From positions 19,953 to 83,952 of the IMG/VR virus record IMGVR_UViG_3300025869_000007: 64,000 nt of DNA. One strand, 5' to 3'. A program made the translations under genes and the position numbers. The notes below the pieces were generated by a model. The model was not told the DNA's origin. It saw only the letters and a list, made by a program, of their open reading frames with translations, and did no database searches. Below, one piece after another: positions 21,362 to 64,000 of the stretch; within the stretch, counting starts at the first letter, position 1, and every line of letters begins with the position of its first letter. Origin of the DNA: a virus.

Positions 21362-21938
21362 CTTTGAGAAAAAGTTTATACTCATTACTCCCGAAAAAAC
21401 AGGTTCGGTTTCCTTGGTTACTGCTCTTAGGAAATACATAGACTTTTCTAAAGTAACAGAGCAACGGAAAGATTGCTTTGATTTTGGTGATAGTTTTGGA
21501 ACTAAATATGCAAAGCATTTACCCCTGTCTCGTTATGAAAAATTATGGGATGATCAAGTATATGGATCACTAGATGAATACCATCTATGCGTGTCTATAC
21601 GAAACCCTTTTGACAGGGAGGTTTCTTGGTGGAAATGGACAAGGAGAAAGGCGAGTCAAGACCCTAAAGACTTTAAGCAGTTTGTATTAAATTTTAAAAC
21701 AACTCCTCTGCTAGATAAGATTGAATCTAAAAAATACAAAATAAAAAACTTTATAAGATTTGAAAACATAGAAAAAGACTTCAAGGCTTTCTGCGTAAAG
21801 GTAGGTATTGATGAAGAGCTTCCCCATAGAAACAAATCGTCACATATGCATTACACTAAATACTACGATGATGAAACTCGTCAAATCGTTGCGGAAAAAT
21901 ACGCAAAGGATATAGAATATTTTAATTATGAATACTAA
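21354..21938 (+). CDS. Sulfotransferase-like protein 2 (194 aa)
   Basis: Same architecture as the gene at 19180: an initial strand, TPEKTGSVS as the PAPS-binding loop, and SIRNPFDREVSWW as the 3'-phosphate site near residue 80. The C-terminal NKSSH segment also recurs in other family members here (NKSST in the 19180 protein). Overlaps both neighbours, so it is translationally coupled within the glycan operon. Confidence 0.75.
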   Translation: MISFEKKFILITPEKTGSVSLVTALRKYIDFSKVTEQRKDCFDFGDSFGTKYAKHLPLSRYEKLWDDQVYGSLDEYHLCVSIRNPFDREVSWWKWTRRKASQDPKDFKQFVLNFKTTPLLDKIESKKYKIKNFIRFENIEKDFKAFCVKVGIDEELPHRNKSSHMHYTKYYDDETRQIVAEKYAKDIEYFNYEY

Positions 21939-22536
21939 AGAAAGACTGCTAAATGAAAGAAGAATGAACCCGAACGGGAATGACATACCTAGTCATACCC
22001 AAGGGCTTTTTGATTTAATTGATTATATCGGTGGGATTAATGACAAAAAAATCTGTGAGGTAGGTTCTTTTAGGGGAGTTTCTTCTGAGGTATTTCTATC
22101 ACATCAGCCAAAAGAAGCTACCTTTGTGGATATTTGGGGAAAGGATGAAAGTTATCGTCAGTCAAATTGGGCGTTTGATAAAAAGAAAATTTATTGGGAT
22201 GAAATAAAAAAAGAATTTATTGAAAGAGTTGGAAGGTATAAGGACAAGACGATAATCAAAGTGTTTCACGACTACTCCGACAGAGCTTCTTTATCAGCAG
22301 ATGAAAGCTCATTAGATTTTGTTTACTTAGATGGAGATCACTCAAAGGATGCGGTGATAAAAGATATTGAGAATTGGCTTCCTAAGATCAAGCAGGGTGG
22401 GTTTCTTTGTGGGCATGATTATCATCCTCCCGTAGAAGATAGGGTAAAGGATGCATTAGATGAGTTCTTTGGAAGTGAATTTATAAAAGAAAACATCGCA
22501 ACATTCTCGGATCGTAGTTTTGCTATAAAAAAATGA
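21928..22536 (+). CDS. Class I SAM-dependent methyltransferase (202 aa)
   Basis: Contains KICEVGSFRGVSSE (SAM-binding motif I, about residues 40-53), an acidic motif (VDIWG) and LDFVYLDGDHS (about residues 128-138), the signature of the Methyltransf_24 and glycan or macrocin O-methyltransferase-like group. The substrate is not readable from the sequence. Location between a sulfotransferase and a glycosyltransferase supports sugar methylation. Confidence 0.7.
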   Translation: MNTKERLLNERRMNPNGNDIPSHTQGLFDLIDYIGGINDKKICEVGSFRGVSSEVFLSHQPKEATFVDIWGKDESYRQSNWAFDKKKIYWDEIKKEFIERVGRYKDKTIIKVFHDYSDRASLSADESSLDFVYLDGDHSKDAVIKDIENWLPKIKQGGFLCGHDYHPPVEDRVKDALDEFFGSEFIKENIATFSDRSFAIKK

Positions 22537-23225
22537 TTTATGTCCTAACAATACATTACAAGTCTAGCCAATGGATTCCTATTCAAACTAGCTATCTCAA
22601 GCAAAACTTAAAGCATTACCAAGTTTATAGCTACATTGATGGGATTGAGATTGATTTGGATGATATCAATTTTACATTTACAGGACAAAGCTCTATTGAA
22701 ATTGACGGAAGCAAAGGTCACGCAAAAAAACTTGATCAGCTTGTGTCAGAAATAAAAGATGCATCAGATGATGACATAATTTTATTTCTTGATGGTGATT
22801 CTTTTCCTATAGCACCCTTAAATAAATTCATAGAAAATTGGATTAGTAAATATGACTTTGTGTCGATTGTGAGAAAAGAAATGAATCACACTTTTCCGCA
22901 TCCATCTTTTGCATTTTGCAAATTTGGAACATGGAGAAACCAAGGCTTAACATGGAAAGTGAAATTTGACACAGGAGGAGTATTAAAGGATCAAGTTGAA
23001 GAAAAAAATCTTAAATGGAAAAAGCTCTACAGAACTAAATCTATGGGCATTCATCCTGTGATGTTTGGAGTATATGCAGACCTCGTATATCATCACACCG
23101 CAGGATTTCGATCCGCAGTCACTCGATGGGATAAGGATAATCAAAAATTCAATTCGCAGGAAAGAGAAAGAGAAGCTCTTACTATTCTAGAAAAAATAAA
23201 AAGTAAGAAAATTAAATTCGTGTGA
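22533..23225 (+). CDS. Putative GT-A glycosyltransferase (230 aa)
   Basis: Starts MIYVLTIHYKS, a GT-A-like first strand, and has IILFLDGDSFP near residue 85 with the DGD metal-binding motif expected for a nucleotide-sugar transferase. C-terminal half has conserved-looking His residues (YHHTAGF) that may close the active site. It overlaps the upstream stop as ATGA and the next start as GTGA. Sugar specificity unknown. Confidence 0.65.
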   Translation: MIYVLTIHYKSSQWIPIQTSYLKQNLKHYQVYSYIDGIEIDLDDINFTFTGQSSIEIDGSKGHAKKLDQLVSEIKDASDDDIILFLDGDSFPIAPLNKFIENWISKYDFVSIVRKEMNHTFPHPSFAFCKFGTWRNQGLTWKVKFDTGGVLKDQVEEKNLKWKKLYRTKSMGIHPVMFGVYADLVYHHTAGFRSAVTRWDKDNQKFNSQEREREALTILEKIKSKKIKFV

Positions 23226-23962
23226 AAACATTTACAATTGGCAGGAGTGGGCTATGTGCAGAATTGCAAAACTTGATTGGATTTTATTACAAATATATTC
23301 ATGGCACAGAAAACAAAATTCATGTAGAGTCTGCCTCTCCATATTTTAGAAAGTTCTGCATTTCATCTCTATTTCAATTTCCAAATAATTTTACATTCGG
23401 AAGAAGGGATTTGGTTAAACACAAACGAGAGAAGCTTTATCATAAATATTTTCCTTTCGGATTTACTTTTGACTACACAGAGAATTTTAAATCTGAAATT
23501 GACAATATAATAAATGAGCTAATCCTTCCTGATTCCTATGTATGCGCTCATATAAGGAGAGGGGATAAAGTAGGAGAAAAGGAGTGCAGACAGGCAAGCA
23601 CTACAGGAGTAATTGAGGGAAAGCGATTCGAGTCCTCGGATTATATTCATTACTGCCCCACCAATATAGATACAATCTTCCTTATGACAGATGACTACAA
23701 AAGCATAAAGGAAGCTAAAGAGTTTATTGATAGGCAAAAATTATCTTTAAAAGTTTTGCACTTAACAAAGGAATCGCAGGATGGACACTCAGAAAAAGAG
23801 AACAATAAAAAAATATACCTAAAACAAGAACTTTTACAGTTCTTTGCGGAAATAGAAATTGCAAAAAAATCTTCCACATTTATAGGCACTAGATCAAGTA
23901 ATGTTTACAGGTATATTAAGAAATCCTACAAACCAAATTGCAACTTTGTTCAATTAGATTGA
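23222..23962 (+). CDS. Fucosyltransferase-like glycosyltransferase 2 (246 aa)
   Basis: GTG start. The central motif CAHIRRGDKV (about residue 105) is the GDP-fucose-type phosphate-binding loop of O-FucT and alpha-1,6-fucosyltransferase relatives. A later segment, TFIGTRSSNVYRY, corresponds to the second conserved nucleotide-binding motif. Like the gene at 19836, it probably uses a GDP-sugar. Two such enzymes in one locus suggest a branched or repeated deoxysugar decoration. Confidence 0.65.
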   Translation: MKTFTIGRSGLCAELQNLIGFYYKYIHGTENKIHVESASPYFRKFCISSLFQFPNNFTFGRRDLVKHKREKLYHKYFPFGFTFDYTENFKSEIDNIINELILPDSYVCAHIRRGDKVGEKECRQASTTGVIEGKRFESSDYIHYCPTNIDTIFLMTDDYKSIKEAKEFIDRQKLSLKVLHLTKESQDGHSEKENNKKIYLKQELLQFFAEIEIAKKSSTFIGTRSSNVYRYIKKSYKPNCNFVQLD

Positions 23963-23966
23963 GGCT

Positions 23967-24620
23967 ATGATAATATCAGATAAATATAAATTTCTAGTGT
24001 TCCATAATCCTAAATGTGGGGGTTCAACGATGGCAACTTGGTCAAGGTCTCACTACGACAAAGAGCCACCATATCGTCAGAATATACATCCCCAAGAATG
24101 CACTATGGAATCTTTTAGGAAGCAAGGTGACGGCATCGATACGAGAGATTACGGGCATGGAGGCACAGGTGCATTCGTCAGATTATATGGGAGAGAAAAA
24201 TTCGATGAGTATAAAAAATACATAGTCGTTAGAAACCCAATAGATCAATGTAAATCTTTGCTCAATCAGTTTGTTAAACACAATGAAAGATTCGGAGAAA
24301 AACCTAACCAATGGGGATCATTAGAGTGTAACGAGCAAGGTGTGCGAAAGGCATTGTTATGGGTTGAGGCAAGACTAAAGGACTTCTTTATTTTAGAGAA
24401 GCAAAAGGGAGTCATGTTTGATGAAGTTGTAAGGTTGGGTGACCTTACTAAGTGGTTCAAAAATTTGTATGAGTCTAATGGCGAAAAAATTAAATGGACT
24501 TTGTCGCATAAAGGAAACACAAGAGTTGATGTAGAAACACCCAATTTGACAGACGAGGATTTAGATTACATTCAGAACGCAGAATATATGAAGTATGTAA
24601 GGGAGACTTATTGTGGATAA
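23967..24620 (+). CDS. Sulfotransferase-like protein 3 (217 aa)
   Basis: HNPKCGGSTMATW near residue 13 is the PAPS-binding loop and VVRNPIDQCKSLL near residue 88 the 3'-phosphate-binding motif. The KCGG variant resembles carbohydrate sulfotransferases of the Sulfotransfer_2 type. It overlaps the next gene by eight bases. Acceptor unknown. Confidence 0.75.
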   Translation: MIISDKYKFLVFHNPKCGGSTMATWSRSHYDKEPPYRQNIHPQECTMESFRKQGDGIDTRDYGHGGTGAFVRLYGREKFDEYKKYIVVRNPIDQCKSLLNQFVKHNERFGEKPNQWGSLECNEQGVRKALLWVEARLKDFFILEKQKGVMFDEVVRLGDLTKWFKNLYESNGEKIKWTLSHKGNTRVDVETPNLTDEDLDYIQNAEYMKYVRETYCG

Positions 24621-25242
24621 AAGAATACCTAGTGGGGATGGAGTTGATCTATTGTTTATTGGGTCAAGTCGATTTGCATTCGTCAGTCAGTATATAAAAT
24701 ATCGTCACGGAATTATTATAGAAGCTATTCCCGAAGAGTTTGAATACATGGAAGCCAATGTAAAAAATTGCAATGCAATGCATAAAACTAATTTCATTCC
24801 TTTGAATGAGTTGATTACAGACAAGGCAGGACAAAGTTATCAGTTTAATATAATTTTAAATAAAAAAGACTCACACGCAGGATCATCTTCTATCTATGAG
24901 CTTCAAGCGTGGAAATATATGCTTGAAAAGACTAACTCTATAGATTTGACGTCTACTACAATTGAAAAAATATTAGATACTTCCAAATGGCAGGACAGGT
25001 TACTTGATGTAGTATTGGATGTCCAAGGTGCGGAACTACTTGCCTTGAAAGGCTTTGGCGAATACATAAATAATGTTAAAAGGCTAGTAGTAGAAGCTTC
25101 GGTAAAAGAATTTTATAAAGGTGGGTGCTTGGCAAATGAATTAAATGCTTTCTTGTTAAACAACAACTTTTCTAAAGTACACGAAGATAAATATTTTAAG
25201 AAGAATGGACACGGAGATATTTGCTATATAAACAATGAATGA
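24613..25242 (+). CDS. FkbM-like methyltransferase 2 (209 aa)
   Basis: GTG start. LLFIGSSRFAF stands in place of a canonical Gly-rich SAM loop, followed by GIIIEAIPEEFEYMEANV, the acidic strand typical of FkbM proteins, and the hallmark VVLDVQGAELLALKGF (about residues 135-150). The first Gly motif is weaker than usual, so activity is uncertain, but the family assignment is good. Likely sugar O-methylation. Confidence 0.7.
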   Translation: MDKRIPSGDGVDLLFIGSSRFAFVSQYIKYRHGIIIEAIPEEFEYMEANVKNCNAMHKTNFIPLNELITDKAGQSYQFNIILNKKDSHAGSSSIYELQAWKYMLEKTNSIDLTSTTIEKILDTSKWQDRLLDVVLDVQGAELLALKGFGEYINNVKRLVVEASVKEFYKGGCLANELNAFLLNNNFSKVHEDKYFKKNGHGDICYINNE

Positions 25243-25495
25243 ACGAGGAAAAGAAAATCGAAGTTACGCAGGAAACGTCAAGAAGACGGGTGTTAGGACG
25301 AAGAAGATCAATGAAAAGCTATCAGAGATGGTAGATAATATGACTCACCCACATACTTGTGCAGAGATTGCTGAATATTGCGTAATGTCAAAACAGGCAG
25401 TATATCAAATAGAGAAAAAAGCAATGAGGAAGATAGCTAATAAATATCCCGAACTAAAAAAGGAATTAGAAACACTCGCAATTCTTTCAGTTTGA
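25235..25495 (+). CDS. Sigma-70 region 4-like helix-turn-helix protein (86 aa)
   Basis: Residues about 40-72 read like sigma region 4.2: a helix AEIAEY, a turn, then SKQAVYQIEKKAMRKI, the pattern of the -35-recognition helix in primary sigma factors. There is no region 2, so it cannot melt promoters alone. It may act as a split or accessory sigma-like transcription factor, or as a small DNA-binding regulator. It overlaps the upstream methyltransferase, so it is expressed with the decoration genes. Confidence 0.6.
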   Translation: MNERGKENRSYAGNVKKTGVRTKKINEKLSEMVDNMTHPHTCAEIAEYCVMSKQAVYQIEKKAMRKIANKYPELKKELETLAILSV

Positions 25496-25528
25496 TGCTT
25501 ATTGACATCATGCATTAGTAAAGAGGTA

Positions 25529-26122
25529 ATGCCATTAAAAGATAATATATTATTTCTTCATATACCAAGGACAGGAGGCACGTCCATAACGAAAGCTATG
25601 GGCATAAAAAAACTAAGGAAGAGCCAAGAGGAATACCTGTACTGTCCACACAAAGGGTATCAACACTACACAGGGTTGCAGATTGAAGGACTAGGGCAAG
25701 AGTGGGATAAATCATTTTCTGTAGTAAGAGATCCCGTCATGAGGCTACAGTCAGAGTGGTTCTTGGGTTATGACAATTGGAGGAGCATAGCGTTACAAAG
25801 AAATACTACAATGCATGAAATTTTTTGGCAGATATGTAAAAGAAATAAAAACACAAAGGGACACTACTGTCATTTTGCTTCATATTCTTTTATGTATAAG
25901 GGCATAGATGATTTAAGGCTACTAGATTTTCACAACCTACAAAACGATTGGGAAGCGATGGTGGATGAGTGGAGCTTGCCGTTTGATAGACAGCTTGAGA
26001 GAAAAAGCATATCTAGATCAAGAGGCAGAGAAAAAATGCCATACTCGCTAAAGCAAGACCTTGCACAGTTATACAAAGAAGATTATAAGCTACTTCGTGA
26101 GAAGGGTATGGCATGGGCATAG
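25529..26122 (+). CDS. Sulfotransferase-like protein 4 (197 aa)
   Basis: The frame is open from 25502, but the ATG at 25529 has an AGAGG upstream and begins with the usual first strand. HIPRTGGTSITKAM is the PAPS-binding loop (about residue 12) and VVRDPVMRLQSEW the 3'-phosphate motif (about residue 65). It closes the glycan locus, separated from the next gene by a promoter. Confidence 0.7.
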   Translation: MPLKDNILFLHIPRTGGTSITKAMGIKKLRKSQEEYLYCPHKGYQHYTGLQIEGLGQEWDKSFSVVRDPVMRLQSEWFLGYDNWRSIALQRNTTMHEIFWQICKRNKNTKGHYCHFASYSFMYKGIDDLRLLDFHNLQNDWEAMVDEWSLPFDRQLERKSISRSRGREKMPYSLKQDLAQLYKEDYKLLREKGMAWA

Positions 26123-26754: not shown

Positions 26755-26936
26755 TGGAAAAAGCGAGAGCAGTTAAAAAAGCTAATGATGCTAAAAGGCT
26801 AAAGGAATCGCTAAAACAAATAAAAAAAGTAAACAGTATTCTTGAAAAGAAAAACTTTTCAATTACTGATGCTTGCAGGAAAGTTGGCATATCTGTAGAT
26901 AAATACTACAGAATTAAAAAAACTTTAAAGTCTTGA
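26754..26936 (+). CDS. Small helix-turn-helix protein (60 aa)
   Basis: Very Lys-rich N-terminal helix followed by SITDACRKVGISVDKYYRIKK, a compact HTH of the type found in small phage regulators and transposase or terminase-like DNA-binding domains. Probably DNA-binding. Its end runs into the promoter of the cyclotransferase gene. Confidence 0.5.
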   Translation: MEKARAVKKANDAKRLKESLKQIKKVNSILEKKNFSITDACRKVGISVDKYYRIKKTLKS

Positions 26937-33740: not shown

Positions 33741-34618
33741 GAATTTTAATTATAGGTTCAACAGGATGGGTTGGTGAGCAAGTGTGGTGGAACGCAAACA
33801 GGTCAGGGCATGAGTGCCACACAATAAGCAGGACAGAATTTTGGATGGACGAAGAATTTAATAATTATTTAAAAAATGTAGATGCAGTAGTGAACTGTGC
33901 AGGATATGCAGGAACGCCAAATGTAGACGCTTGCGAATTACCTGAAAATAGAGAAGCCGTCCATACAGCAAATGTAAAAATTCCAAAAAGATTAGCGGAG
34001 TTTTGTAAAGACATTCCATTTGTCCATGTGTCTAGCGGATGCCTATATCAAGGACAGGGCAGAACAGGAAGACTTAGAGAAAGAACAGATTACATAGGAA
34101 AGCATTTTACTATAGACGATTGGCAACATGATAGTTGGTCAGAGAGGAATGCACCAAACTTTAGAGGCAGTTATTATGCTCAAACTAAAATAGAGGGAGA
34201 GCAACAACTAGAAAATGTAGATTGTTGGATTTTGAGACCTAGAATGTTTTTTGGATTGGGAAAACATAATAAAAATTTTATCTCAAAAATTATAGAGTAT
34301 GACACTATAGTAAACGCAATTAACAGCGTTACACACATAGGAGAGTTTTGTGTATCCATTATAAAATGCATAAATTTAAATCCTCCTTTTGGAACTTATA
34401 ATATAACGCATCCTGTGCCTGTGATGACTAGTCAAATACTAGACACTTTAGGGTATGAAAAAAAATATGTTACTTGTCAGAAGTTTAATGAAGACATGAG
34501 GGCAAAAGGATTAGCGGAAAGAAGTTTTACGACTTTGGACTCTCGCAAAGCTTGCCAACATAAAATAGGGCTATCACTAGACCCAATGCGAATAATCCAA
34601 AACTACAAGCACCAATGA
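33737..34618 (+). CDS. RmlD/SDR-type nucleotide-sugar reductase or epimerase (293 aa)
   Basis: IIGSTGWVG is the Rossmann NAD(P) loop, NCAG and VSSGCLY the second and third SDR motifs, and YYAQTK the catalytic Tyr-xxx-Lys (about residue 149). The pattern is that of dTDP-4-dehydrorhamnose reductase and extended SDR epimerases. It may make an activated sugar for the nearby glycosyltransferase at 35214 or for the glycan locus. Unusual placement between terminase and ParB genes. Confidence 0.7.
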   Translation: MRILIIGSTGWVGEQVWWNANRSGHECHTISRTEFWMDEEFNNYLKNVDAVVNCAGYAGTPNVDACELPENREAVHTANVKIPKRLAEFCKDIPFVHVSSGCLYQGQGRTGRLRERTDYIGKHFTIDDWQHDSWSERNAPNFRGSYYAQTKIEGEQQLENVDCWILRPRMFFGLGKHNKNFISKIIEYDTIVNAINSVTHIGEFCVSIIKCINLNPPFGTYNITHPVPVMTSQILDTLGYEKKYVTCQKFNEDMRAKGLAERSFTTLDSRKACQHKIGLSLDPMRIIQNYKHQ

Positions 34619-35217
34619 ACATAAGTACACTTATACCTAGCGAGCAGAATCCTAGAATCATTTCCCAAGAAAATTTAAATAAATTAAAAAGCAGTATAAA
34701 AGGCTTTGAAAAAATGATGGAAGCTAGACCTTTAGTTGTAACTGAAGACATGAGGGTAGTTGGAGGTAATCAAAGATTAAAAGCATTAATCCAATTAGGA
34801 TACGAATCAATTCCTGATTCTTGGGTAAAGATAATGTCATTTACTCCTGAAGAAGAAAGGGAGTTCATAGTGAAGGATAATGCTTCATATGGTGGATGGG
34901 ATTGGGATTTATTATTAGAAGAGTTTGGGCAAAAGGAACTATTTGATTGGGCTATAGAAGTGCCAAACTTGGGAGACTTAGAGAAAGTTGAAAAAGTTAA
35001 CGACCTTGAAAATGAAGAGTGGGTTGGTATGCCTGATTTTGAGACAAAGGAAGATCCTTTACAAATTGTAGTCAAGTTTGAAAACGATGGACTAAGGAAA
35101 GAGTTTGCCGAAAAAATGAACATTGAATTTACATACGCAAAAGAAGGAAATAAAACTTGGACTACATGGTATCCATATAAGGGAAAAGGTGATTGGAAAA
35201 GTAAAAAATACGAGTGA
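34615..35217 (+). CDS. ParB/Srx-domain protein 1 (200 aa)
   Basis: N-terminal LIPSEQNPRIIS (NPR motif) and VVGGNQRLKA (G-G-x-x-R-x-x-A box) define the ParB N-terminal domain (about residues 1-95). FIVKDNASYGGWD follows, as in other phage ParB-like proteins. No ParB HTH or dimer domain, so it is not a segregation ParB. In phages such genes lie beside DNA modification genes; here it is coupled to a TAGT-type glycosyltransferase. Confidence 0.75.
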   Translation: MNISTLIPSEQNPRIISQENLNKLKSSIKGFEKMMEARPLVVTEDMRVVGGNQRLKALIQLGYESIPDSWVKIMSFTPEEEREFIVKDNASYGGWDWDLLLEEFGQKELFDWAIEVPNLGDLEKVEKVNDLENEEWVGMPDFETKEDPLQIVVKFENDGLRKEFAEKMNIEFTYAKEGNKTWTTWYPYKGKGDWKSKKYE

Positions 35218-36029
35218 ATCCTAAATACCCAATTTATGTGCCAACAAAAAACAGGCATAAGTTAGCACACACGATAAGGTGCTTTCTTGAGGATGGTGTA
35301 GATTTCAAGATAGTAGTAGAGCCATCTCAGGTAGAAAACTACAAAGAGTTTAAAGATATTATGCTAGTGCTACCTGAAAATAATCTGAGATTATTAGGGT
35401 CAAGGCTTTGGATCAGAGAGCATTCATTAAAGAACGGCTTTGCTAGGCATTGGCAGTTTGATGACAACATTAGATATGTAGGTAGGCTACACAAAGGAGA
35501 ACGGATTAGGTGCAATGCAAACAAAGCAATTTCTATAGTAGAAGAATTTACAGACAGGTACTCTAATATAGGAGTGAGCGGATTAAACTATAGAATGTTT
35601 GTAGCGAGGCAGAAAAAGCCCTACATACTTAACACAAGGGTATACTCAGCAAGTTTAATAAACAACGAGATGCCATACAAGCACAGGCTGTATTATAACG
35701 ATGACACAGACTTATGCCTACAATGCGTGACCAATAATTTATGCACTATTAACTTCTGTACATTTTTTATAGAGAAGATAACCACAATGAAAGTAAGTGG
35801 AGGCAACACTACAGACCTTTACGAAAAGGATGGAAGATTATTGATGGCGAGGTCATTGGAAGAAGTGTGGGGCAAAGAGCTAGTGGAAACTAAATGGAGA
35901 TTTGGCAGACCACAGCACGTTGTTAAAAATTCTTGGAATCAATTCACGCATCCATTAATAAGGAGAAAGGATATTGATTGGGATGAGATTAAAAATAAAA
36001 AGTATGAATTTAAATTAAAAGAAAAATGA
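35214..36029 (+). CDS. TET-associated-type glycosyltransferase (TAGT-like) (271 aa)
   Basis: GTG start overlapping the previous TGA. Begins YPIYVPTKNRHKLAHTI, then KIVVEPSQVENYK, LVLPENN and WQFDDNIR (about residue 82), which matches the GT-A family described with TET/JBP dioxygenases and proposed to glycosylate hydroxymethylated bases in phage DNA. DDN is the likely metal and nucleotide-sugar site. A TET/JBP dioxygenase is not visible in this window. Flanked by two ParB-domain genes in one coupled operon. Confidence 0.75.
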   Translation: MNPKYPIYVPTKNRHKLAHTIRCFLEDGVDFKIVVEPSQVENYKEFKDIMLVLPENNLRLLGSRLWIREHSLKNGFARHWQFDDNIRYVGRLHKGERIRCNANKAISIVEEFTDRYSNIGVSGLNYRMFVARQKKPYILNTRVYSASLINNEMPYKHRLYYNDDTDLCLQCVTNNLCTINFCTFFIEKITTMKVSGGNTTDLYEKDGRLLMARSLEEVWGKELVETKWRFGRPQHVVKNSWNQFTHPLIRRKDIDWDEIKNKKYEFKLKEK

Positions 36030-37516
36030 AAACAGAACTAATAAAAAACATTAAGCCAAACCCTGATAATCCTAGAATTATAAAAGATGAAAAATTTAAG
36101 CAGTTGGTGAAAAGCATTAAGGACTTCCCCGAAATGCTGAAACTGAGACCGATTGTAGTGAACAGCGAAAGTATAGTTCTTGGTGGAAATATGAGGCTTA
36201 AAGCTTGCGTGGAGGCAGGACTCAAGGAAGTACCTATAATACGCGCAAGCGAGTTGACTGAGGATCAGCAGAAAGAGTTTATAATTAAGGACAACTCTAG
36301 TTTTGGCGAATGGGATATGGAGCAACTTTTAAACGAATGGAAAGCGGAAGATTTAAATGAATGGGGTCTTGATGTTCCGATTGACTATGCCGTCGACGAA
36401 GTTTTGGAAATCAAAGAGGATAATTTTGATGTAGCTTCTGAAGAAGTAGAAAAAATTGAAACAGACATTAAATTGGGTGATTTAATACAAATAGGAGATC
36501 ATCGAATTTTATGCGGGGACTCCACGAAGCCCGAAGACGTCGAGAGACTTATGGGAGAAGAGAGGGCAGACCTTGCACACAACGACCCACCTTACGGAAT
36601 GAAGAAAGAAAAAGATGGGGTTATGAATGACAATCTAAACTTTGATGCACTACTAGAGTTTAATAAGGCGTGGATTCCTTTGCAGTTTTCGTACATTAAG
36701 GAAAACGGATCGTGGTATTGTTGGGGAATAGACGAGCCACTTATGGATGTGTATCATGTTATTCTAAAGCCATATCAAATTGAAAAAAAATTAAAATTTA
36801 GAAATCTCATAACTTGGGACAAGGGACATGGGCAGGGGCAGAAAAGTGAAAATACTCGTATGTTTGCCACAGCAGACGAGAAGTGCCTACACGCAGAGCA
36901 TTTATTATTTGCCATGATGGGAGAGCAGGAGGCAGGACAAAATAAGGATTTCTTTATGAAGGAGTGGATGCCTTTGTTGACATATCTTGTAGGAGAAAAA
37001 GATAAGATGGAATGGACTACAAACGACTGCATAAAGATAACAGGAAAGTCGTCCGCATCTCACTACTTCACAAAGTCTCAGTTTTTCATTCCGACAAAAG
37101 AACATTATTACAAACTTAGAAATGCCTCAAAGGGTAAGGCATTCTTGAGGTCATACGAAGAGTTGGAGGAAGAATCCAATGAAATACTTCAAGAATTTTA
37201 TAACAAACGGACATATTTTGATAATATGCACGACAACATGAATAATGTGTGGCACATCGACAGGACATCAAACAAAGAGAGGGAGGCTGTAGGTAATCAC
37301 GCAACCCCTAAGCCTTTATCACTTTGTGGTAGGGCTATTAAAAGCAGTTGCCCTGTTGGCGGATTGGTTATTGATATGTTTTTGGGTTCGGGGTCTACTA
37401 TGGCATCAGCACATCAACTAAAGAGAAAATGCTATGGCATGGAGTTAGACCCAAAGTATTGCCAAGTAATTATTAACAGAATGCTAAAACTTGACCCAAC
37501 ACTAAAAGTAGAATGA
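36026..37516 (+). CDS. ParB-domain fused to N4/N6 DNA methyltransferase (496 aa)
   Basis: Residues 1-110 form a ParB-type domain (NPDNPRI, GGNMRLKA, IIKDNSSFGEW). A methylase follows with DPPYG near residue 187 and DMFLGSGST near residue 452, the order of class beta amino-methyltransferases (N6-adenine or N4-cytosine). It would methylate an exocyclic amine in phage DNA; target sequence unknown. The ParB part may guide or regulate it. Confidence 0.85.
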   Translation: MKTELIKNIKPNPDNPRIIKDEKFKQLVKSIKDFPEMLKLRPIVVNSESIVLGGNMRLKACVEAGLKEVPIIRASELTEDQQKEFIIKDNSSFGEWDMEQLLNEWKAEDLNEWGLDVPIDYAVDEVLEIKEDNFDVASEEVEKIETDIKLGDLIQIGDHRILCGDSTKPEDVERLMGEERADLAHNDPPYGMKKEKDGVMNDNLNFDALLEFNKAWIPLQFSYIKENGSWYCWGIDEPLMDVYHVILKPYQIEKKLKFRNLITWDKGHGQGQKSENTRMFATADEKCLHAEHLLFAMMGEQEAGQNKDFFMKEWMPLLTYLVGEKDKMEWTTNDCIKITGKSSASHYFTKSQFFIPTKEHYYKLRNASKGKAFLRSYEELEEESNEILQEFYNKRTYFDNMHDNMNNVWHIDRTSNKEREAVGNHATPKPLSLCGRAIKSSCPVGGLVIDMFLGSGSTMASAHQLKRKCYGMELDPKYCQVIINRMLKLDPTLKVE

Positions 37517-38109
37517 GTCAACCAATGGAGAATCAGGAAGATAAATATCCATGCCTAGCCGTAATGAAGGCAGGAGATATAAGGAGAGCAGAATGGAATC
37601 CAAGAACACTTCCTGAGAGAAATGAAGGAAAGGCAGGAGAGTCATTAGAGCATTTTGGTTGGCTACAGCCTTTGACATGGAATGCGAGAACAAAGACCCT
37701 GCTAGATGGGCATATGAGGCTAGAGGATGTATCGGATGAAGATGAAGTACCTGTATACTGCGTATGGCTAGATAGTGAGAAAGAGCAAGTAGCAAGCGTG
37801 GCGCTAAACAACAGCTATGGGGAATGGATAGAAGAAGGAGTTAGTGAGAGCTTAAAAGATTTAAGTGAGGAGATGGCAGAAGTGGGGTTAGCAGGATTTG
37901 GGAGCGATACAGGCAAATTTTTATTTTTGGAAGAATGGGAAAAAGATGAGCGGGAAGAAAGAGAAGAGTTGGATGAATATGAGAAGAAGCATAAGTTGGT
38001 ATTGGAGTGGGATAGCCTAGATCAGAAGATAGCATGGGAGCAGTTTCAGCAGAGGGCAGGAACAATTGACGCAATATTAGAAGCAATGAGAGGATGGAAT
38101 AATGAGTGA
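37513..38109 (+). CDS. ParB/Srx-domain protein 2 (198 aa)
   Basis: WNPRTL and LLDGHMRLEDV are the NPR and G-H-x-R boxes of a divergent ParB domain, followed by ALNNSYGEWIEEG, the same post-domain element seen in the neighbouring paralogs. The C-terminal half is Glu/Lys-rich and helical. ATGA-coupled to the methylase fusion. Confidence 0.7.
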   Translation: MSQPMENQEDKYPCLAVMKAGDIRRAEWNPRTLPERNEGKAGESLEHFGWLQPLTWNARTKTLLDGHMRLEDVSDEDEVPVYCVWLDSEKEQVASVALNNSYGEWIEEGVSESLKDLSEEMAEVGLAGFGSDTGKFLFLEEWEKDEREEREELDEYEKKHKLVLEWDSLDQKIAWEQFQQRAGTIDAILEAMRGWNNE

Positions 38110-38344
38110 TGACATATTAGAAGGAAAGATTAGGCAAAGTACAGAAAACCCTTTACCTATACTTAGGATATTGGAAACAAGAGATATACCATATGTGGAG
38201 ATGGATATAGAGGGAGAAGTAGATGCTATAAAGGTCATAGTTGATATGGGGAAGGAAGTAGCAACAGATGAAGATTACTTTAACATAGGACTTACGCACG
38301 GATTAAAGGAAGCAATAAAGGAGCATGAGAAGAACAATGACTAA
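38102..38344 (+). CDS. Small acidic protein (80 aa)
   Basis: Overlaps the ParB gene upstream and the next gene downstream. Acidic alpha-beta protein without a recognised motif. Confidence 0.5.
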   Translation: MSDDILEGKIRQSTENPLPILRILETRDIPYVEMDIEGEVDAIKVIVDMGKEVATDEDYFNIGLTHGLKEAIKEHEKNND

Positions 38345-38798
38345 AGAAGAAGCTGTAGAATATTACACCAAAGAAATGGGTAAGGACTTTGCTCCAAAGT
38401 ATGGAGACATACGAACAACTGAATCTATAGAGAAATGCTATGATCAGGTAATGCAGAAGGTAGAAGAAGGATTACAGGATTGGGATGGTTGTGTGGGTAA
38501 GGGATTATGCTGTAAGGCTTTTACTCATAAGATAAATGTAAAGAAAGCCATGAGTGAGGGTGGAGAAGATATGGAAGCATTTGCTAATGCACACTTCGAT
38601 GGCGAGGAAGATAGCGATACAAGTATATCAGTAGTTATCAATCATACCTGTAATTTATTGGGGGAAGATAACAGATGTACGATATATGAAGATAGACCTA
38701 AGATATGCAGGGAGTATTTATGTCAGGCATCTAAGTTAAGAAGAGATATGTTTTGGAGAATCAAACATCCACACATAGTATCAATGGCAGAAGAGTGA
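38325..38798 (+). CDS. YkgJ-like cysteine-cluster protein (157 aa)
   Basis: CVGKGLCCKAF (about residues 55-65) and CNLLGEDNRCTIYEDRPKICREYLC (two stretches, residues about 108-132) give the conserved Cys set of the YkgJ/CxxCxxCC zinc- or iron-chelating family. Role in phages unknown; in cells it is a putative metal-binding domain. ATG 38325 or ATG 38337 could be the start; the second overlaps the previous stop. Confidence 0.65.
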   Translation: MRRTMTKEEAVEYYTKEMGKDFAPKYGDIRTTESIEKCYDQVMQKVEEGLQDWDGCVGKGLCCKAFTHKINVKKAMSEGGEDMEAFANAHFDGEEDSDTSISVVINHTCNLLGEDNRCTIYEDRPKICREYLCQASKLRRDMFWRIKHPHIVSMAEE

Positions 38799-39349
38799 AG
38801 CTAATAAAGAAAAAGGTAAGTGAGCTAAAGGAGCATTCCTTAAACGAGAAGACCCGTAGGATTACCTCTGAGGCATTAGGTAAGCTAGAGGTATCAATAG
38901 ACACCTTAGGGACGATACAGCCCATTGTATGGAATGAGAGATTGGATTGCATATGTTCAGGGCATCAACGTGTGAAGGCATATAAGTCGAAAGGAATAGA
39001 AGAAATCGACGTATGGGTGGTAGACCTAAGTGAACAAGATCATTGCTTGGCTATGTATATGTTGAATAATCATTTTGGTGAGTTTGATGAGGATATGCTA
39101 AGGAATGTTATACAAAGCGTAAATGAGGCAGACGACATGGAAGTTGACCTACTAGGATTTGATGAAAATAAAATTGAAAATTTTTTAAAGGAGTTGGATA
39201 CAGATAGTTTGCAAGAAGAGAAGTACTGCTCTAGTATTATATTTGATAACGCGGAACAAAAGAAAGAATTTATACAGCTAAGAAAGAAGTTCAGAGATAG
39301 TGGACAACTTGCGGAATTAGCTACAAACAAATTACAGCTATGGACATAA
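38795..39349 (+). CDS. ParB/Srx-domain protein 3 (184 aa)
   Basis: The GTG at 38795 overlaps the previous TGA (GTGA), which I prefer to the upstream ATG at 38753 inside the YkgJ gene. CSGHQRVKA is the G-H-x-R box and YMLNNHFGEFDEDM the element after the domain, as in its paralogs. No HTH follows. Fourth ParB-type gene in this operon. Confidence 0.7.
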   Translation: MKLIKKKVSELKEHSLNEKTRRITSEALGKLEVSIDTLGTIQPIVWNERLDCICSGHQRVKAYKSKGIEEIDVWVVDLSEQDHCLAMYMLNNHFGEFDEDMLRNVIQSVNEADDMEVDLLGFDENKIENFLKELDTDSLQEEKYCSSIIFDNAEQKKEFIQLRKKFRDSGQLAELATNKLQLWT

Positions 39350-40136: not shown

Positions 40137-40526
40137 CTAATCGCTATTTACTAATCTTATGTATTCTAGGATTACAGTTAGATTGAATTGATGGACAGCC
40201 TTAATTCTTAATCCATTATTAAAAAAACCAATCTCAGCCCAAGGCAGAGTGCCGTCTTCTGAAAGCCTAATGGCTTTAAAATTTTCCAACTCCTGCGGAG
40301 TTATTATATCTGATATGTAATCCCTGATTCCATTTTTCTTCATCCACTTCCAATAATATGACCTTGTCCCTTTTTCTGCTGTGAGAAGAATATCCTCATA
40401 CTCGCAAATTTTTGCATAGAGAGAAATATCCCTAAAGGATGACAACTCAGAAGGAGGACAGCATAAAGGAGCATCTAATACTAAGTACACACATACATTT
40501 TGAAATTCAAATCCTGTGTGCGTCAA
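40137..40526 (-). CDS. Lone minus-strand hypothetical protein (129 aa)
   Basis: The frame is open to a TTG at 40568, but the minus-strand promoter (TTGACA at 40581-40576, TAAAAT at 40557-40552) would start transcription near 40545. The TTG at 40526 follows a GGGAGGGG site by eight bases and is the better start. A tyrosine-rich alpha-beta protein without a recognised family. The only convincing gene on this strand in 64 kb. Confidence 0.55.
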   Translation of the reverse strand: MTHTGFEFQNVCVYLVLDAPLCCPPSELSSFRDISLYAKICEYEDILLTAEKGTRSYYWKWMKKNGIRDYISDIITPQELENFKAIRLSEDGTLPWAEIGFFNNGLRIKAVHQFNLTVILEYIRLVNSD

Positions 40527-40551
40527 TAGATCAGCCCCTCCCCACCCTCGG

Positions 40552-40581
40552 ATTTTAGCATGGATCAAATATACTTGTCAA
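40552..40581 (-). promoter_or_regulatory. Minus-strand promoter of the lone reverse gene
   Basis: On the minus strand AAAAGTA precedes TTGACA (40581-40576), then 18 bases and TAAAAT (40557-40552). The same upstream A-rich box as the plus-strand promoters. Confidence 0.55.
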
Positions 40582-40904
40582 TACTTTTATTCAAATATTT
40601 TAAAATAAATTTAAAAGAAAGAAAAGATAGGGAGGGATATTGCATTACCTCCAAGGTTTCAGGGAAACTACAATGAGTTCTAACTGCACCTACCGACTTA
40701 CTTGGCTCATCCATTTGGACATCACTACAAGCAAGCTGTACCTTACGACGTTTCCATTCGTTATTCGAGTCACTATCTTAAACTGTGTTATATGGGACAC
40801 ATATATATAAGAGTAGGGATAGATTATTTTTTTCGGAATTTTTAAAAAAAACTTTTCTAGAGGTTGCGCTTTTACTATTTGCCTGACCTATTATATATGG
40901 GAGA

Positions 40905-41052
40905 CCATTTCTTTCTTATTTATTATTATGGTCGCAAGCGATAAGGCGAGTTGAGGCAGAAAATCTCAATGATGATCCAAAAGCTCCTTTGCATGACAGG
41001 GGGGCAGGGAAGTTTTTATTGGTATTCTTCCTTGCCCCTTCTATCATAACTT
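40905..41052 (+). ncRNA. Candidate small structured RNA in a 750-base non-coding gap
   Basis: After a TATTATATAT-type -10 near 40890 comes a GACCAT...ATGGTC stem (near 40905-40935), a TTGAG...CTCAA hairpin and a 12-bp hairpin GGGGCAGGGAAG / CTTCCTTGCCCC (about 41001-41040) ending near TTCTATC. No ORF of note. The rest of 40590-41240 contains smaller hairpins, such as GGAGG...CCTCC near 40635, and no gene I can support. Confidence 0.4.
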
Positions 41053-41094
41053 ACCTCGAAAATCAGTAATGTAATACTAGATTTACAAGGTGAA

Positions 41095-41130
41095 TTTTGC
41101 TTTAAATCAATTTCAGCAAAACTATTTTAA
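41095..41130 (+). terminator. Rho-independent terminator-like hairpin
   Basis: TTTTGCT (41095-41101) pairs with AGCAAAA (41115-41121), followed by an A/T-rich tract with a run of seven T. Precedes the promoter of the amidoligase operon. Confidence 0.5.
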
Positions 41131-41249
41131 AATTTTTTTACCTTTTTTTTAAAATAAATTAACAGCTCGCAATGTCAGTAAACAAGAGGGTTCTAGCCGT
41201 AATGAAGCATAATGCTACAAGAAATATTTAACTTTTTTTTGAAGATGTC

Positions 41250-47362: not shown

Positions 47363-47400
47363 GGCTGAATCCCTTATGAATACAGGGACTTAGCCGTTTT
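47363..47400 (+). terminator. Hairpin after the small-gene operon
   Basis: GGCTGAATCCC (47363-47373) pairs with GGGACTTAGCC (47385-47395) around TTATGAATACA, followed by TTTT. Closes the operon just before the promoter at 47436. Confidence 0.55.
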
Positions 47401-47435: not shown

Positions 47436-47470
47436 TTGACATTTATGAAAAAAAGCAATAGGTTTAAATC
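47436..47470 (+). promoter_or_regulatory. Early-type promoter of the giant RNA
   Basis: TTGACA at 47436-47441, exactly 17 bases, TAGGTT at 47459-47464; predicted +1 at 47471. Same box as the protein-gene promoters. Confidence 0.75.
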
Positions 47471-48650
47471 ATATTCAACAAAGCACCTTGAGCTAAAGAA
47501 AAGGCAACACGACCAAAAAGACTAAAGAGGGGATCAGCCAAAAGCCGATCAAAACAAAAACTATAACAAAAGTTATTCAGTAAAACTTTTCGATTAGGCT
47601 CACAGGAATCTTTCTTATCGAACGAGGCAAACAAGTTAACGCTTGTCCCTGCTATCTATGGCAATACCACTTGACGCTCCTAGATGAAGACGGCGCCCCT
47701 GCTAACGGAAGGTTTTATTGAGTAACTTTGATATTAGCTTAGAGAGATGAAACACCGAGGGATAGAGAAAATCAGCTACTCTCCTACGAAAGTAGACTCT
47801 AAGTTAATATCTTGTCTTTAGGTCAATGTGCCTACGCTATTCGTGTTAAAACACTCCCTATTGAGTCAAGTGTTATGTCTGTGGATACTGCCACTTTCAT
47901 GATGCCATCTCATAGGTTAGAGCAATGTGATACACGATAGTCGTACTAGACCATACCTAAAGGCAAATTAATTTTTAGATGGCTCTCTGCGCTTTAAAGC
48001 GTGGTAATAACCAAGGCTTGTGAATGGTAGGCTTTCCCTTCTTCGGGAGAGACAAGCGTTAAGCAAGTCGTAGGTCAGAGGATTATAGAGAATCCTTAAT
48101 AAGCGGAGATATAAAACAGGTATGCGTAAGTGCCAACTGACCCTCAGTCACACACCCTATCGAAGAAGGTGCATGGAGCAACGAACGACTCCATGAGGCG
48201 CAGAGAGCCATCTAATTATTTTAATCCATTGAGGTTGTGCTTACATCGAGTGAACTTGACTCAGATACCTAAGCCTATCTTATAGAATCCTCCTATGCGT
48301 TTAGTGAAAGCGAGCATTACGTGAGGCAAGCGTTAAGACAAGGCAACGGATCATCTGACCAAGGTGACGATAAGCCAATGGATACATTTTAATGGGACGG
48401 ACGGAATCAATCCGTGAGATAACATCAGAACTTCGCAGGGTAATCAGTCAAATCTGCCTGTGGCAAAGTCCAAGTCCTTACACTAGAGCCGACTTCCAAA
48501 GTACACGGAATCCAATGCTGAGTGTGAGGGCGAATCAATTTTATATGCTAACAAGTTCTAACTTAACTGCAAATAGGTGGTGATAAGAGAGGTGCGGAAT
48601 GCAGTCTAATCTATCCTCTTGTAGGTTCGACTCCTACCTTGTCTAGCACT
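47471..48650 (+). ncRNA. Giant structured non-coding RNA candidate (about 1180 nt)
   Basis: No coherent ORF, less AT-rich than the flanks, and its own promoter. Visible helices: 15 bp between 47730-47744 and 47797-47811 (one G-U), enclosing a CTAC-GAAA-GTAG stem; 12 bp perfect between 47637-47648 and 48051-48062; 18 bp perfect between 47975-47992 and 48198-48215, enclosing CATGGAG/CTCCATG, AGGATT/AATCCT and a UUCUUC-loop hairpin. The 3' end has a tRNA T-arm (GTAGG-TTCGACT-CCTAC, 48621-48637) and CTTGTCT (48638-48644), which can pair with AGACAAG at 48336 or, with a bulge, with GCTAACAAG at 48547. This fits the giant phage RNA type (GOLLD or ROOL), but I cannot assign a family from the sequence alone. 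Confidence 0.7.
48546..48650 (+). other. tRNA-like 3' domain
   Basis: A canonical T-stem/loop and a candidate acceptor helix, but no consistent D-arm or anticodon arm and no encoded CCA. It may be a tRNA-like processing signal at the end of the large RNA or a degenerate tRNA. Confidence 0.5.
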
Positions 48651-48714
48651 CTTTAAATTAGAAAACTGCAAATTGTTTAATAAAAAATTAAAGTTTTTTT
48701 AAAAAAATAAAAAG

Positions 48715-48765
48715 GCTAAACCCTAGTGTTTATAAGGGTTCTAGGACTTTTGGAAAAACTTTTTT
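48715..48765 (+). terminator. Hairpin plus T-tract after the giant RNA
   Basis: GGCTAAACCC pairs imperfectly with GGGTTCTAGG around a TAGTGTTTATAA loop, followed by AAAAACTTTTTT. Same style as the hairpin at 47363. Confidence 0.5.
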
Positions 48766-48786: not shown

Positions 48787-48821
48787 TTGACATAAATAAT
48801 AACTTATGGTTTTATTAAATC
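48787..48821 (+). promoter_or_regulatory. Early-type promoter of a second non-coding RNA
   Basis: TTGACA at 48787-48792, TTTTAT at 48810-48815, predicted +1 near 48822. Nearly identical to the amidoligase promoter at 41250. Confidence 0.65.
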
Positions 48822-49220
48822 ATATTAAGCAACGGACTTGTGACCGACAGATCAAGCAAAACGACTAATAAGAAGGGAACAAAAGTTCAAAACCAAAAAA
48901 AAACTTTTAAACTTTATCTAAAAGTAGTCAAGACGTACGACAACTGTATAGAATTAGCTACTACTAGATAAGAAAAGAAGTAGAGATTGAAATATCGAAA
49001 AGCGAGAAAATCAGCGCCTTCCATCATAAACTTAAACATAAATATAAGCCACAAAACATTAATTTGATGATCTACTTCTTCCGTCAAATCCTGTCCTTCG
49101 TGAAATTGGTTATGCATTAAATTGTGTGTAAAATTCCCATACTCCTTCAATGGAGATAAGCGAAGGGCAGGGTAAGATGGTTTTTCATAGAAATCATTTT
49201 TATAAATTTTTCCAATTCCG
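48822..49220 (+). ncRNA. Second non-coding transcript candidate
   Basis: About 400 bases after a strong promoter with no supportable plus-strand ORF. It has A-rich stretches and an AAAGTT...AACTTT pairing early on. A minus-strand ORF (49237-48914, TTG start) overlaps it but has no ribosome site or convincing promoter. Terminated at the latest by the hairpin at 49269. Confidence 0.4.
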
Positions 49221-49255
49221 TTGACATAAAAAACCAACCACAGTTATTTTAAAGA
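49221..49255 (+). promoter_or_regulatory. Possible promoter of a short sRNA
   Basis: TTGACA at 49221-49226 and TTATTT at 49244-49249, with predicted +1 near 49256. Lacks the usual A-rich box. Confidence 0.45.
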
Positions 49256-49314
49256 CTGTTGTTGTTCTGCCCTCTCTCGTTTACTTGGTGTGACGAGAGG
49301 GGGCTATTTTTTTG
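49256..49314 (+). ncRNA. Short RNA with a GUUGUUGUU tract and terminator
   Basis: TGTTGTTGTTC at 49257-49267, then a 12-bp stem (49269-49280 with 49293-49304) and TATTTTTTT. The tract is complementary to the conserved AACAAC start region of the leaderless genes. Confidence 0.45.
49269..49314 (+). terminator. Rho-independent terminator
   Basis: GCCCTCTCTCGT (49269-49280) pairs with ACGAGAGGGGGC (49293-49304), then TATTTTTTT. Strong and followed by a new promoter. Confidence 0.8.
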
Positions 49315-60653: not shown

Positions 60654-60910
60654 AGTATAAGCAAGAATCTATTACAAGATTTGTATTTTTTTCAGAATCT
60701 CAAAAAGATACTGCTCATGTTGTAGATTTAATGGACGGAGAATGTACTTGTCAAAATTTTCAATTCAGAATTAAACCTTTATTGGAAAGAGGAATAATAA
60801 AGCCTACTGACGCTGTTGCAAAATGTAAGCACATGAAGCAAGCAAGAGAAATTTTGTGTGATGAAATATTAAACCAATTAAAAAATGGCGAAAAGCAGAC
60901 ACAGAGCTAG
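60650..60910 (+). CDS. SWIM-like zinc-binding protein (86 aa)
   Basis: ECTCQNF (about residue 31) and KCKHMKQARE (about residue 60) form a C-x-C-xn-C-x-H pattern typical of SWIM zinc fingers, which bind DNA or proteins. Small, coupled to the KH gene and overlapping the next gene by 26 bases. Confidence 0.6.
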   Translation: MKYKQESITRFVFFSESQKDTAHVVDLMDGECTCQNFQFRIKPLLERGIIKPTDAVAKCKHMKQAREILCDEILNQLKNGEKQTQS

Positions 60911-61508
60911 AGCAAAGCAAATCGCTCATGCAAATCAAAGGATTGCTCACGCGCAAACAGGACGACAAATATTCTTAAATAATCAAGTTAAGAAAAAAGC
61001 AATAGCTACACAAAAGGCAAAAGCTACGCAGAGAGCAAAAGCAACACAGGTAGCACAAGCGACAAATAGAATAAAGCACGCACAGACAGGAAGGCAGAGG
61101 TTTCTCAAGGCAATGGAATCTTTGAAAAAACAACAAATAAAGATAACAAAACACAATGTAAAAACTAGAGCAGAATTTTTAGAGCAGGATAAGAAAAACG
61201 GAAGCCAAAGATTAGCTAAAAAAGCCAATGGTAGTGCAAGGTTGTCAAAAAAAGCTAATGGAAGTGCTAGATTAGCAGGAAAGCAGAATGGCAGTCAGAG
61301 ACTAGCAGGAAAAAGCAATGGTAGTGCAAGGATAGCTAATATAAAAAATGGTAGCGCTCGCTTATTGGATAAGAAAAACGGAAGTGCAAGATTGGCAGAA
61401 AATAAAAAACAGCAACCCAAAACACTAAGAAATGGAAGTGCAAGACTAAGAGATCAAAGAGGGATACAAGATAAAGATCATTTAAAAGCACCTAGACCAA
61501 TGGCATAA
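60885..61508 (+). CDS. Highly basic repeat protein with NGSARL repeats (207 aa)
   Basis: Two imperfect N-terminal repeats (RIAHAQTGRQ and RIKHAQTGRQ) separated by a KAKATQ-type stretch, then eight copies of NGS(A/Q)R(L/I) spaced by about nine residues and separated by short Lys-rich linkers (about residues 107-195). No hydrophobic core is evident, so it is probably disordered and strongly cationic. It may bind or condense nucleic acid, act as a translation- or RNA-binding tether, or be a virion-packaged protein; none is proven. Confidence 0.7.
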   Translation: MAKSRHRARAKQIAHANQRIAHAQTGRQIFLNNQVKKKAIATQKAKATQRAKATQVAQATNRIKHAQTGRQRFLKAMESLKKQQIKITKHNVKTRAEFLEQDKKNGSQRLAKKANGSARLSKKANGSARLAGKQNGSQRLAGKSNGSARIANIKNGSARLLDKKNGSARLAENKKQQPKTLRNGSARLRDQRGIQDKDHLKAPRPMA

Positions 61509-61510
61509 TT

Positions 61511-62362
61511 GTGAAAATGAAAATAAACTGCTCTTATACGAAATTAGTACCCATAGAGGAATTAGTTAAACATCCCAAAAATCCAAACACACATACACCT
61601 AGGCAAATCGATCTACTTGCAAAGATTATAAAAATGAGCGGATTTAGATCGCCTATTGTGGTGAGTAAAAGAAGTGGCTTTATTGTAAAGGGTCACGGCA
61701 GATTAGAAAGTGCAATAAAAGCAGGACTAAAACAAGTGCCTGTGGATATTCAAGAATACGAATCAGAGGCAGAAGAATATGCAGACATGATCGCAGATAA
61801 TCGAATTGCGGAACTGAGTGAAATGAACCCTGACACACTTATTGAGTTAATAGGAGAGCTTGAAGAGGTTGACTTTGATGTGGATTTGACGGGATTTGAG
61901 GAGTATGACATCGACCAACTTATCGATGGAATAGGTGAAGAGAAAAAAGAGGAGAAGAAGGAAGGTGGATACTTGGATATTGAGTACACGCAAAAGATAA
62001 AAGCACCTAATTACGAGATAAAGGGAGACAAGCCAAGCATAGAGGAGTTGTATGAAACAGAAAAATATGACTCTTTGGTTGAAGAAATAGATAAGAGTAG
62101 CCTCTCGGAAGAGCATAAAAAGTTTTTAAAAATAAGTGCCTCAAGGCATATAGTCTTTAATTATGAGAAGATAGCTGAATACTACGCACATCAAGAAAAG
62201 GAAGCACAGGGGCATATGGAAGATTCTGCATTAGTTGTTATAGATTTTGATAAAGCCATAGAGAAAGGATTTGGCTCATTTACGGAAGAAATGAGAAAGT
62301 ACTTTGCCCAAACACCAACAGGTGCAAATCCTGTGCCTTTGTATTCAGATGATGAAGAATAA
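61511..62362 (+). CDS. ParB/Srx-domain protein 4 (283 aa)
   Basis: GTG start at 61511, with ATG 61517 as an alternative. HPKNPNTHT replaces the NPR box and VKGHGRLESA is the G-H-G-R box; MIADNRIAELSEM follows. The rest has a DDxxGF-type element and an acidic tail. Overlaps a TAGT-like glycosyltransferase, repeating the ParB/TAGT arrangement at 34615-36029. Confidence 0.7.
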   Translation: MKMKINCSYTKLVPIEELVKHPKNPNTHTPRQIDLLAKIIKMSGFRSPIVVSKRSGFIVKGHGRLESAIKAGLKQVPVDIQEYESEAEEYADMIADNRIAELSEMNPDTLIELIGELEEVDFDVDLTGFEEYDIDQLIDGIGEEKKEEKKEGGYLDIEYTQKIKAPNYEIKGDKPSIEELYETEKYDSLVEEIDKSSLSEEHKKFLKISASRHIVFNYEKIAEYYAHQEKEAQGHMEDSALVVIDFDKAIEKGFGSFTEEMRKYFAQTPTGANPVPLYSDDEE

Positions 62363-63867: not shown

Positions 63868-63906
63868 GAATGGAAAAAAAAACTAAAACTTTTTTCTAAA
63901 AAGGTA

Positions 63907-63942
63907 TTGACAAATATATAAGTTTGTGGTTTTATTATAACC
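63907..63942 (+). promoter_or_regulatory. Early-type promoter, leaderless
   Basis: TTGACA at 63907-63912, TTTTAT at 63930-63935, ATG at 63943. Confidence 0.7.
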
Positions 63943-64000
63943 ATGAACAACACAACAATTACAACAATAAACATAAACACTTTTACAGGCTCAATTCCAA
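63943..64000 (+). CDS. Early-type protein, truncated by the window end
   Basis: ATGAACAACACAACA start at the predicted +1; 19 codons visible, Asn/Thr/Ile-rich. Continues beyond the window. Confidence 0.5.
   Translation, partial: MNNTTITTININTFTGSIP

Follow-up and report, generated by a model that had tools for sequence, protein, structure and literature searches.

A gene-free locus with two predicted transcription units

The upstream genes of the phage stop at 47339, and no further + strand gene starts until 49357. The gene-free span of ~2.0 kb in between contains two predicted geneless transcription units, named here RNA1 and RNA2. All positions refer to the window, which is the whole stretch of 64,000 bases that was analysed and corresponds to positions 19953–83952 of a viral-contig record of 83,952 bases. 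The first ~125 bases of this record reappear at its end (record 1–125 and window 63870–64000, with one A indel), and on account of this terminal direct repeat the record probably represents an entire circular phage genome of ~83.8 kb, with nearly all of its genes on the + strand. The initial annotation had described positions 47471–48650 as free of genes; this was borne out, and the gene-free stretch proved to be longer than had been stated. The elements of the locus are as follows.

47363–47395, + strand: terminator-like hairpin (GGCTGAATCCCT...AGGGACTTAGCC and a T run) belonging to the operon before RNA1; z −3.8 and folding energy −16.4 kcal/mol, not equalled by any of 200 shuffles
47436–47470, + strand: RNA1 promoter, TTGACA (47436–47441), N17, TAGGTT (47459–47464), TAAATC; layout shared with other promoters of the phage
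47471–48655 (3′ end approximate), + strand: RNA1, large structured noncoding RNA with the start AUAUU; fold z about −6, chance-level ORFs
48710–48751, + strand: terminator-like hairpin after RNA1, weak (fold −10.8 kcal/mol, z −0.7), resembling the terminator upstream of RNA1
48787–48821, + strand: RNA2 promoter, TTGACA, N17, TTTTAT, TAAATC; layout as in the RNA1 promoter
48822–49311, + strand: RNA2, second structured noncoding RNA of ~490 nt; z −6.0, 0 of 100 shuffles as good
49269–49304, + strand: intrinsic terminator of RNA2, strong, with a T run behind it; z −5.6, folding energy −25.5 kcal/mol

The 3′ end of RNA1 is given as approximate because the hairpin at 48710–48751 is weak. The longest + strand ORF inside RNA1 has 63 aa, a length that 32% of shuffles reach and that is thus at chance level, and the small ORFs adjoining the RNA locus are orphans.

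Promoters and predicted transcript starts

The proposal that RNA1 is driven by the phage's own promoter type holds, with TTGACA-N17-TAGGTT-N6-A at 47436–47471, and the start of 47471 given in the initial annotation is the +1 predicted from this promoter. About ten other promoters of the phage have the identical layout, with an ATG (usually ATGAACAAC) 35–37 bases from the start of TTGACA. The arrangement TTGACA-N17-TAGGTT/TTTTAT-N6 with an ATG at the expected +1 is seen at window positions 26933, 29626, 31758, 45028, 51901, 52776, 53586, and 63907, among others. Because six bases separate the −10 hexamer and the start, the phage apparently makes many leaderless mRNAs that would start at AUG. 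Both RNA promoters carry ATATT at the position of the ATG; the predicted transcripts start with AUAUU and have no start codon, and both would open with AUA where the leaderless mRNAs open with AUG.

The terminator-promoter-leader modules of RNA1 and RNA2 are related to each other, with 63% identity over 258 nt by blastn (E 3e-13). Additionally, the transcribed leaders (47471–47598 and 48822–48958) align with a score of 66, which none of 1000 shuffles reached, the best shuffle being close at 64. As the second unit has the same promoter type, a related leader, a z-score of −6.0, and a strong terminator, the locus would encode a pair of noncoding RNAs, not a single RNA. The presence of an own promoter and terminators would also suit a long regulatory RNA (an antisense RNA, a sponge, or a small-RNA precursor) whose fold gives stability only, and the single-stranded, A-rich leader common to RNA1 and RNA2 could be its active part. 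However, the structured body of ~1 kb would far exceed the need of such a function, and we consider this explanation unlikely.

Predicted fold of RNA1

Folding of 996 nt of RNA1 gave a z-score of −6.1, a fold that none of 20 shuffles equalled, and the full 1180 nt gave −6.0 on the + strand and −3.8 on the reverse strand; in the same fold test, three coding controls gave −1.0, 0.0, and −2.6, although folding z-scores by themselves are no proof of functional structure. In 200-nt windows across RNA1 the signal was modest, with the exception of one near 47801 (+ strand z −4.1), as expected if long-range helices carry the fold signal. Six compact domains in a row, each closed by a long helix, make up the predicted fold; most of these helices have a mean pair probability above 0.9.

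47569–47729, + strand: domain 1, closed by 24 consecutive pairs (47569–47592/47706–47729); mean pair probability 0.99
47730–47811, + strand: domain 2, closed by 15 pairs (47730–47744/47797–47811); mean pair probability 1.00; internal GAAA-loop hairpin
47812–47966, + strand: domain 3, closed by 12 pairs (47812–47823/47955–47966); mean pair probability 0.94; strongest local + strand z in RNA1, −4.1
47975–48215, + strand: domain 4, 20 pairs (47975–47994/48196–48215) around a multi-branch junction; mean pair probability 0.98
48224–48383, + strand: domain 5, closed by 8 pairs (48224–48231/48376–48383); mean pair probability 0.81; moderate confidence
48474–48531, + strand: domain 6, closed by 11 pairs (48474–48484/48521–48531); mean pair probability 0.99

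In this predicted fold, domains 1–3 abut with zero linker, as in coaxial stacks. The 24-pair helix of domain 1 was absent from the initial annotation, which had listed three long-range complementarities of 18, 15, and 12 bp as exact. The first of these, 47975–47992 with 48198–48215, is exact Watson–Crick pairing with pair probabilities of 0.91–1.0, and the longest perfect stem among 300 dinucleotide shuffles was 14 bp. The second, 47730–47744 with 47797–47811, is retained as a helix with pair probabilities of 0.98–1.0 but contains one G–U pair and is therefore not an exact complement. The third is real, but its coordinates had been one base off (47636–47647 with 48051–48062), and ~5% of shuffles match that stem length. 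The complement and a repeated motif are as follows.

47636–47647, + strand: TTAACGCTTGTC, complement of 48051–48062 (12 nt); its first 10 nt are also the complement of 48327–48336
48049–48063, + strand: motif GAGACAAGCGTTAAG, with copies at 48323–48337 (93%) and 47863–47877 (80%)

The 12-nt complement would cross the 20-pair helix of domain 4 as a pseudoknot, and it has probability 0 in the nested fold. From base complementarity, 47636–47647 might possibly engage 48051–48062 or 48327–48336 in a pseudoknot or in an inter-molecular contact.

Inverted repeats of this length in ~2 kb of geneless sequence could instead act in DNA, as part of a replication origin, a packaging site, or a protein-binding array, or could lie in a gene-poor spacer, and in relatives of the phage the gene-free DNA near this place is unstructured. 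Nevertheless, the fold signal is stronger on the + strand, which is the strand of the promoter and the terminators, GC skew shows no switch at the RNA locus, and the helices are imperfect and nested as RNA domains, unlike binding-site arrays. A DNA element or spacer is therefore quite improbable. Collectively, the promoter with its +1 at 47471, the stable helices, the z-score of about −6, the chance-level ORFs, the second unit, and the terminator hairpins that precede RNA1 and close RNA2 argue for a structured noncoding RNA.

A tRNA-like stretch near the 3′ end of RNA1

Near its 3′ end, RNA1 contains one stretch that resembles part of a tRNA.

48586–48645, + strand: tRNA-like stretch with the anticodon arm missing; the tRNA model aligned end to end, at 15.6 bits against a gathering threshold of 29

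This score, together with the missing anticodon arm, does not make the stretch a member of the tRNA family. The T-arm that the initial annotation had placed near the 3′ end is present as a sequence (GTAGG-TTCGACT-CCTAC at 48621–48637), but the predicted fold prefers a competing hairpin, and the pair probability of the T-arm is 0.04. Counting both strands, the whole record contains three perfect T-arm sequences, and for one of them to fall inside RNA1 is a ~2% event. With the bases that follow, GTAGG-TTCGACT-CCTAC-CTTGTCT-A is similar to the T-arm and the 3′ strand of the acceptor in the 3′ half of tRNA or tmRNA, as in those tRNA-Ile(UAU) genes whose ends read CTTGTCTA; in contrast to these, RNA1 has no anticodon arm, scores below the threshold, disfavors the T-arm in its fold, and matches no tmRNA model. 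The proposed association with tRNAs found no support in tRNA genes, of which ARAGORN detected none in the record, and what is left is a single T-arm-like hairpin, itself disfavored in the predicted fold; at the level of sequence, a tRNA link of RNA1 is suggestive. A tmRNA reading, in which AGACAAGG at 48336–48343 would pair with CCTTGTCT, was dropped because the pair probability is 0 and there is no tmRNA match.

Comparison with known RNA families

To our knowledge, few giant phage RNA families are known, and two of them proved to be RNA-only cages, the purpose of which is unknown. GOLLD is a 14-mer RNA cage, and ROOL is an 8-mer RNA cage. At gathering thresholds, Rfam gave nothing, and a permissive scan with all 4227 Rfam models returned only the weak tRNA match, whose 15.6 bits fall short of the gathering score of 29, and two chance matches. 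Across the whole record, the GOLLD model (RF02032) matched nowhere at E ≤ 10, and it was absent from the permissive scans as well. The ROOL model (RF03087), run over the same record at E ≤ 10, likewise had no match, a somewhat weaker result since the positive-control genomes gave none either. The tmRNA model matched nothing over the entire record at E ≤ 10 (14 of 14 controls matched), and ARAGORN called no tmRNA. Furthermore, group-II-D1D4-1 (a group II intron domain model, RF01998), run singly on the whole record, gave none at E ≤ 10, and the all-Rfam scans contained no match to group I introns, group II introns, or HEARO. The covariance-model check suggested at the outset for GOLLD, ROOL, HEARO, and tmRNA thus returned no match to any of them. 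The initial annotation had proposed a giant structured RNA, possibly of the GOLLD/ROOL class; the large structured noncoding RNA is upheld by the promoter, the geneless span, the fold statistics, and the second unit, whereas membership in GOLLD or ROOL is not, as neither model matched. As a kind, RNA1 looks like a large structured phage noncoding RNA, with a fold beyond chance, its own promoter, and no ORF above chance level.

GOLLD and ROOL RNAs form RNA-only cages (PMC12286853). Similar to GOLLD, which is often tRNA-linked (PMC12286853), RNA1 is phage-borne, longer than 800 nt, and multi-domain and has no protein product; in contrast to GOLLD, it has no model match at E ≤ 10, no tRNA gene, and a smaller structured companion RNA. 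With ROOL, which makes RNA-only cages (PMC12286853), it shares being a large structured RNA of a phage or prophage, but it is twice the length of the 574-position ROOL model and gave no match (nor did any positive control). A divergent GOLLD or ROOL member beyond the reach of current models would agree with the size, the phage origin, the elaborate fold, and the T-arm-like hairpin, and the 5′ regions of GOLLD are poorly conserved (PMC12286853). However, the 3′ region of GOLLD is universally conserved within the family (PMC12286853), so its absence counts, both RF02032 and RF03087 were silent across the whole record, and the record is without tRNA genes; such membership is most unlikely. Two unclassified lncRNAs of staphylococcal phage K, lnc001 (635 nt) and lnc002 (1154 nt), are abundantly transcribed, and lnc001 has its own promoter (PMC9241854). 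What the two phages have in common is a pair of long noncoding RNAs of comparable size (PMC9241854), whereas the phage K pair flanks tRNA genes and lies far apart, and there was no DNA similarity in the phage collection.

Searches for homologs and relatives

By blastn, RNA1 had no homologs among 50,697 phage records or among plasmids, and RNA2 had none among the phage records. A scan of viral contigs with the T-arm/acceptor pattern gave matches that were read as tRNA genes or tRNA-like 3′ ends, and one with the repeated GAGNCAAGCGTTAAG motif gave chance matches, with contig L174 (59% match) judged to be noise. For the motif that the RNA1 and RNA2 leaders have in common, no surrounding similarity was present among the viral-contig matches listed. 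The T-arm scan of the genome collection returned four tRNA-Ile genes and one chance match in a coding region.

Neighboring and conserved genes were used as baits for related phages. The neighboring amidoligase gave no relatives, the neighboring 200-aa ORF gave only an unrelated glycosyltransferase contig, and the neighboring methyltransferase gave distant phages only. With the terminase, two sisters were found (L006, 89% identical, and L007, 82%), both fragments that do not extend over this locus, as well as a full relative, L009, in which there was no RNA. With the helicase, the sisters L195, L197, and L198 were found, with 72–79% DNA identity in the helicase region, and these contigs stop short of the RNA locus. 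Large gaps in L077 and L082 were an artefact of record cutting. The full-length relative G005 (85,196 bases, terminase 59%) has the same gene order; its gene-free DNA near the equivalent place is dissimilar and shows no structure (z 0.3 and 1.0). Because G005 holds only unstructured gene-free DNA there, the RNA is, as far as sequence comparison goes, not conserved across the wider phage group. In the shorter relative G006, the gene-free region has a z-score of −4.3, but a terminator and simple GGTCGGTC repeats occur in it, and it is not similar to RNA1 or RNA2. The gene-free DNA of G005 (83313–85196) and of G006 (1041–2083), near the equivalent place, has GGCGGTGCGTATAG-like repeats in common.

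The lack of any homolog in the searches made, and the adjoining small ORFs that are orphans too, could be taken to mean a gene in decay, or junk gained recently, in which the structure arose by chance. We regard this as very improbable, since the z-score of about −6 and the 18-bp perfect stem are far outside the shuffles, RNA1 does not significantly resemble any of the proteins encoded by the phage, the promoter is intact, and the two units are alike in build.

Interpretation of the RNA pair

By analogy, the locus is best read as representing an orphan class of large structured phage noncoding RNA that would be GOLLD/ROOL-like and a member of neither. We consider it fairly probable that RNA1 is an independently transcribed large structured phage noncoding RNA accompanied by the smaller RNA2, similar in kind to GOLLD and ROOL, likely a homo-oligomeric or ribosome-sized scaffold, and part of no known family. 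RNA1 would be transcribed during infection and, with AUA at the position of the first codon, would accumulate by virtue of being compact and untranslated. It might act as a structural RNA rather than as an antisense regulator, and this structural role would most likely be that of a homo-oligomeric or ribosome-sized scaffold, as for GOLLD and ROOL.

A more tentative reading, possible but less likely, is that of a new giant phage RNA class unrelated to GOLLD and ROOL, produced as a pair (1.2 kb and 0.5 kb) from promoter-leader modules that were duplicated, and forming an RNA complex in which a TTAACG hairpin loop at 47636–47641 and its two CGTTAA partner sites may provide the contacts. If true, an unrelated giant RNA class with a companion RNA would imply that phages invented such RNAs repeatedly, and the pair would provide a new system, with a defined promoter and a companion, for asking what giant phage RNAs do.

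Other features of the phage genome

Elsewhere in the window, a gene run at 17097–26122 resembles, by eye, glycosyltransferases, sulfotransferases, and FkbM-like methyltransferases. Several ParB-like or methyltransferase-like ORFs at 34615–39349 and 61511–62362 are mutually related and in tandem, as judged by eye and from cross-matches. At 60885–61508, a 207-aa protein consists mostly of a repeated NGSARL-like unit and has no Pfam match. Finally, a strong hairpin region at 40901–41200, seen on both strands (z −3.3 and −4.5), probably serves as a terminator in both directions next to one of the rare genes on the minus strand (40137–40568).
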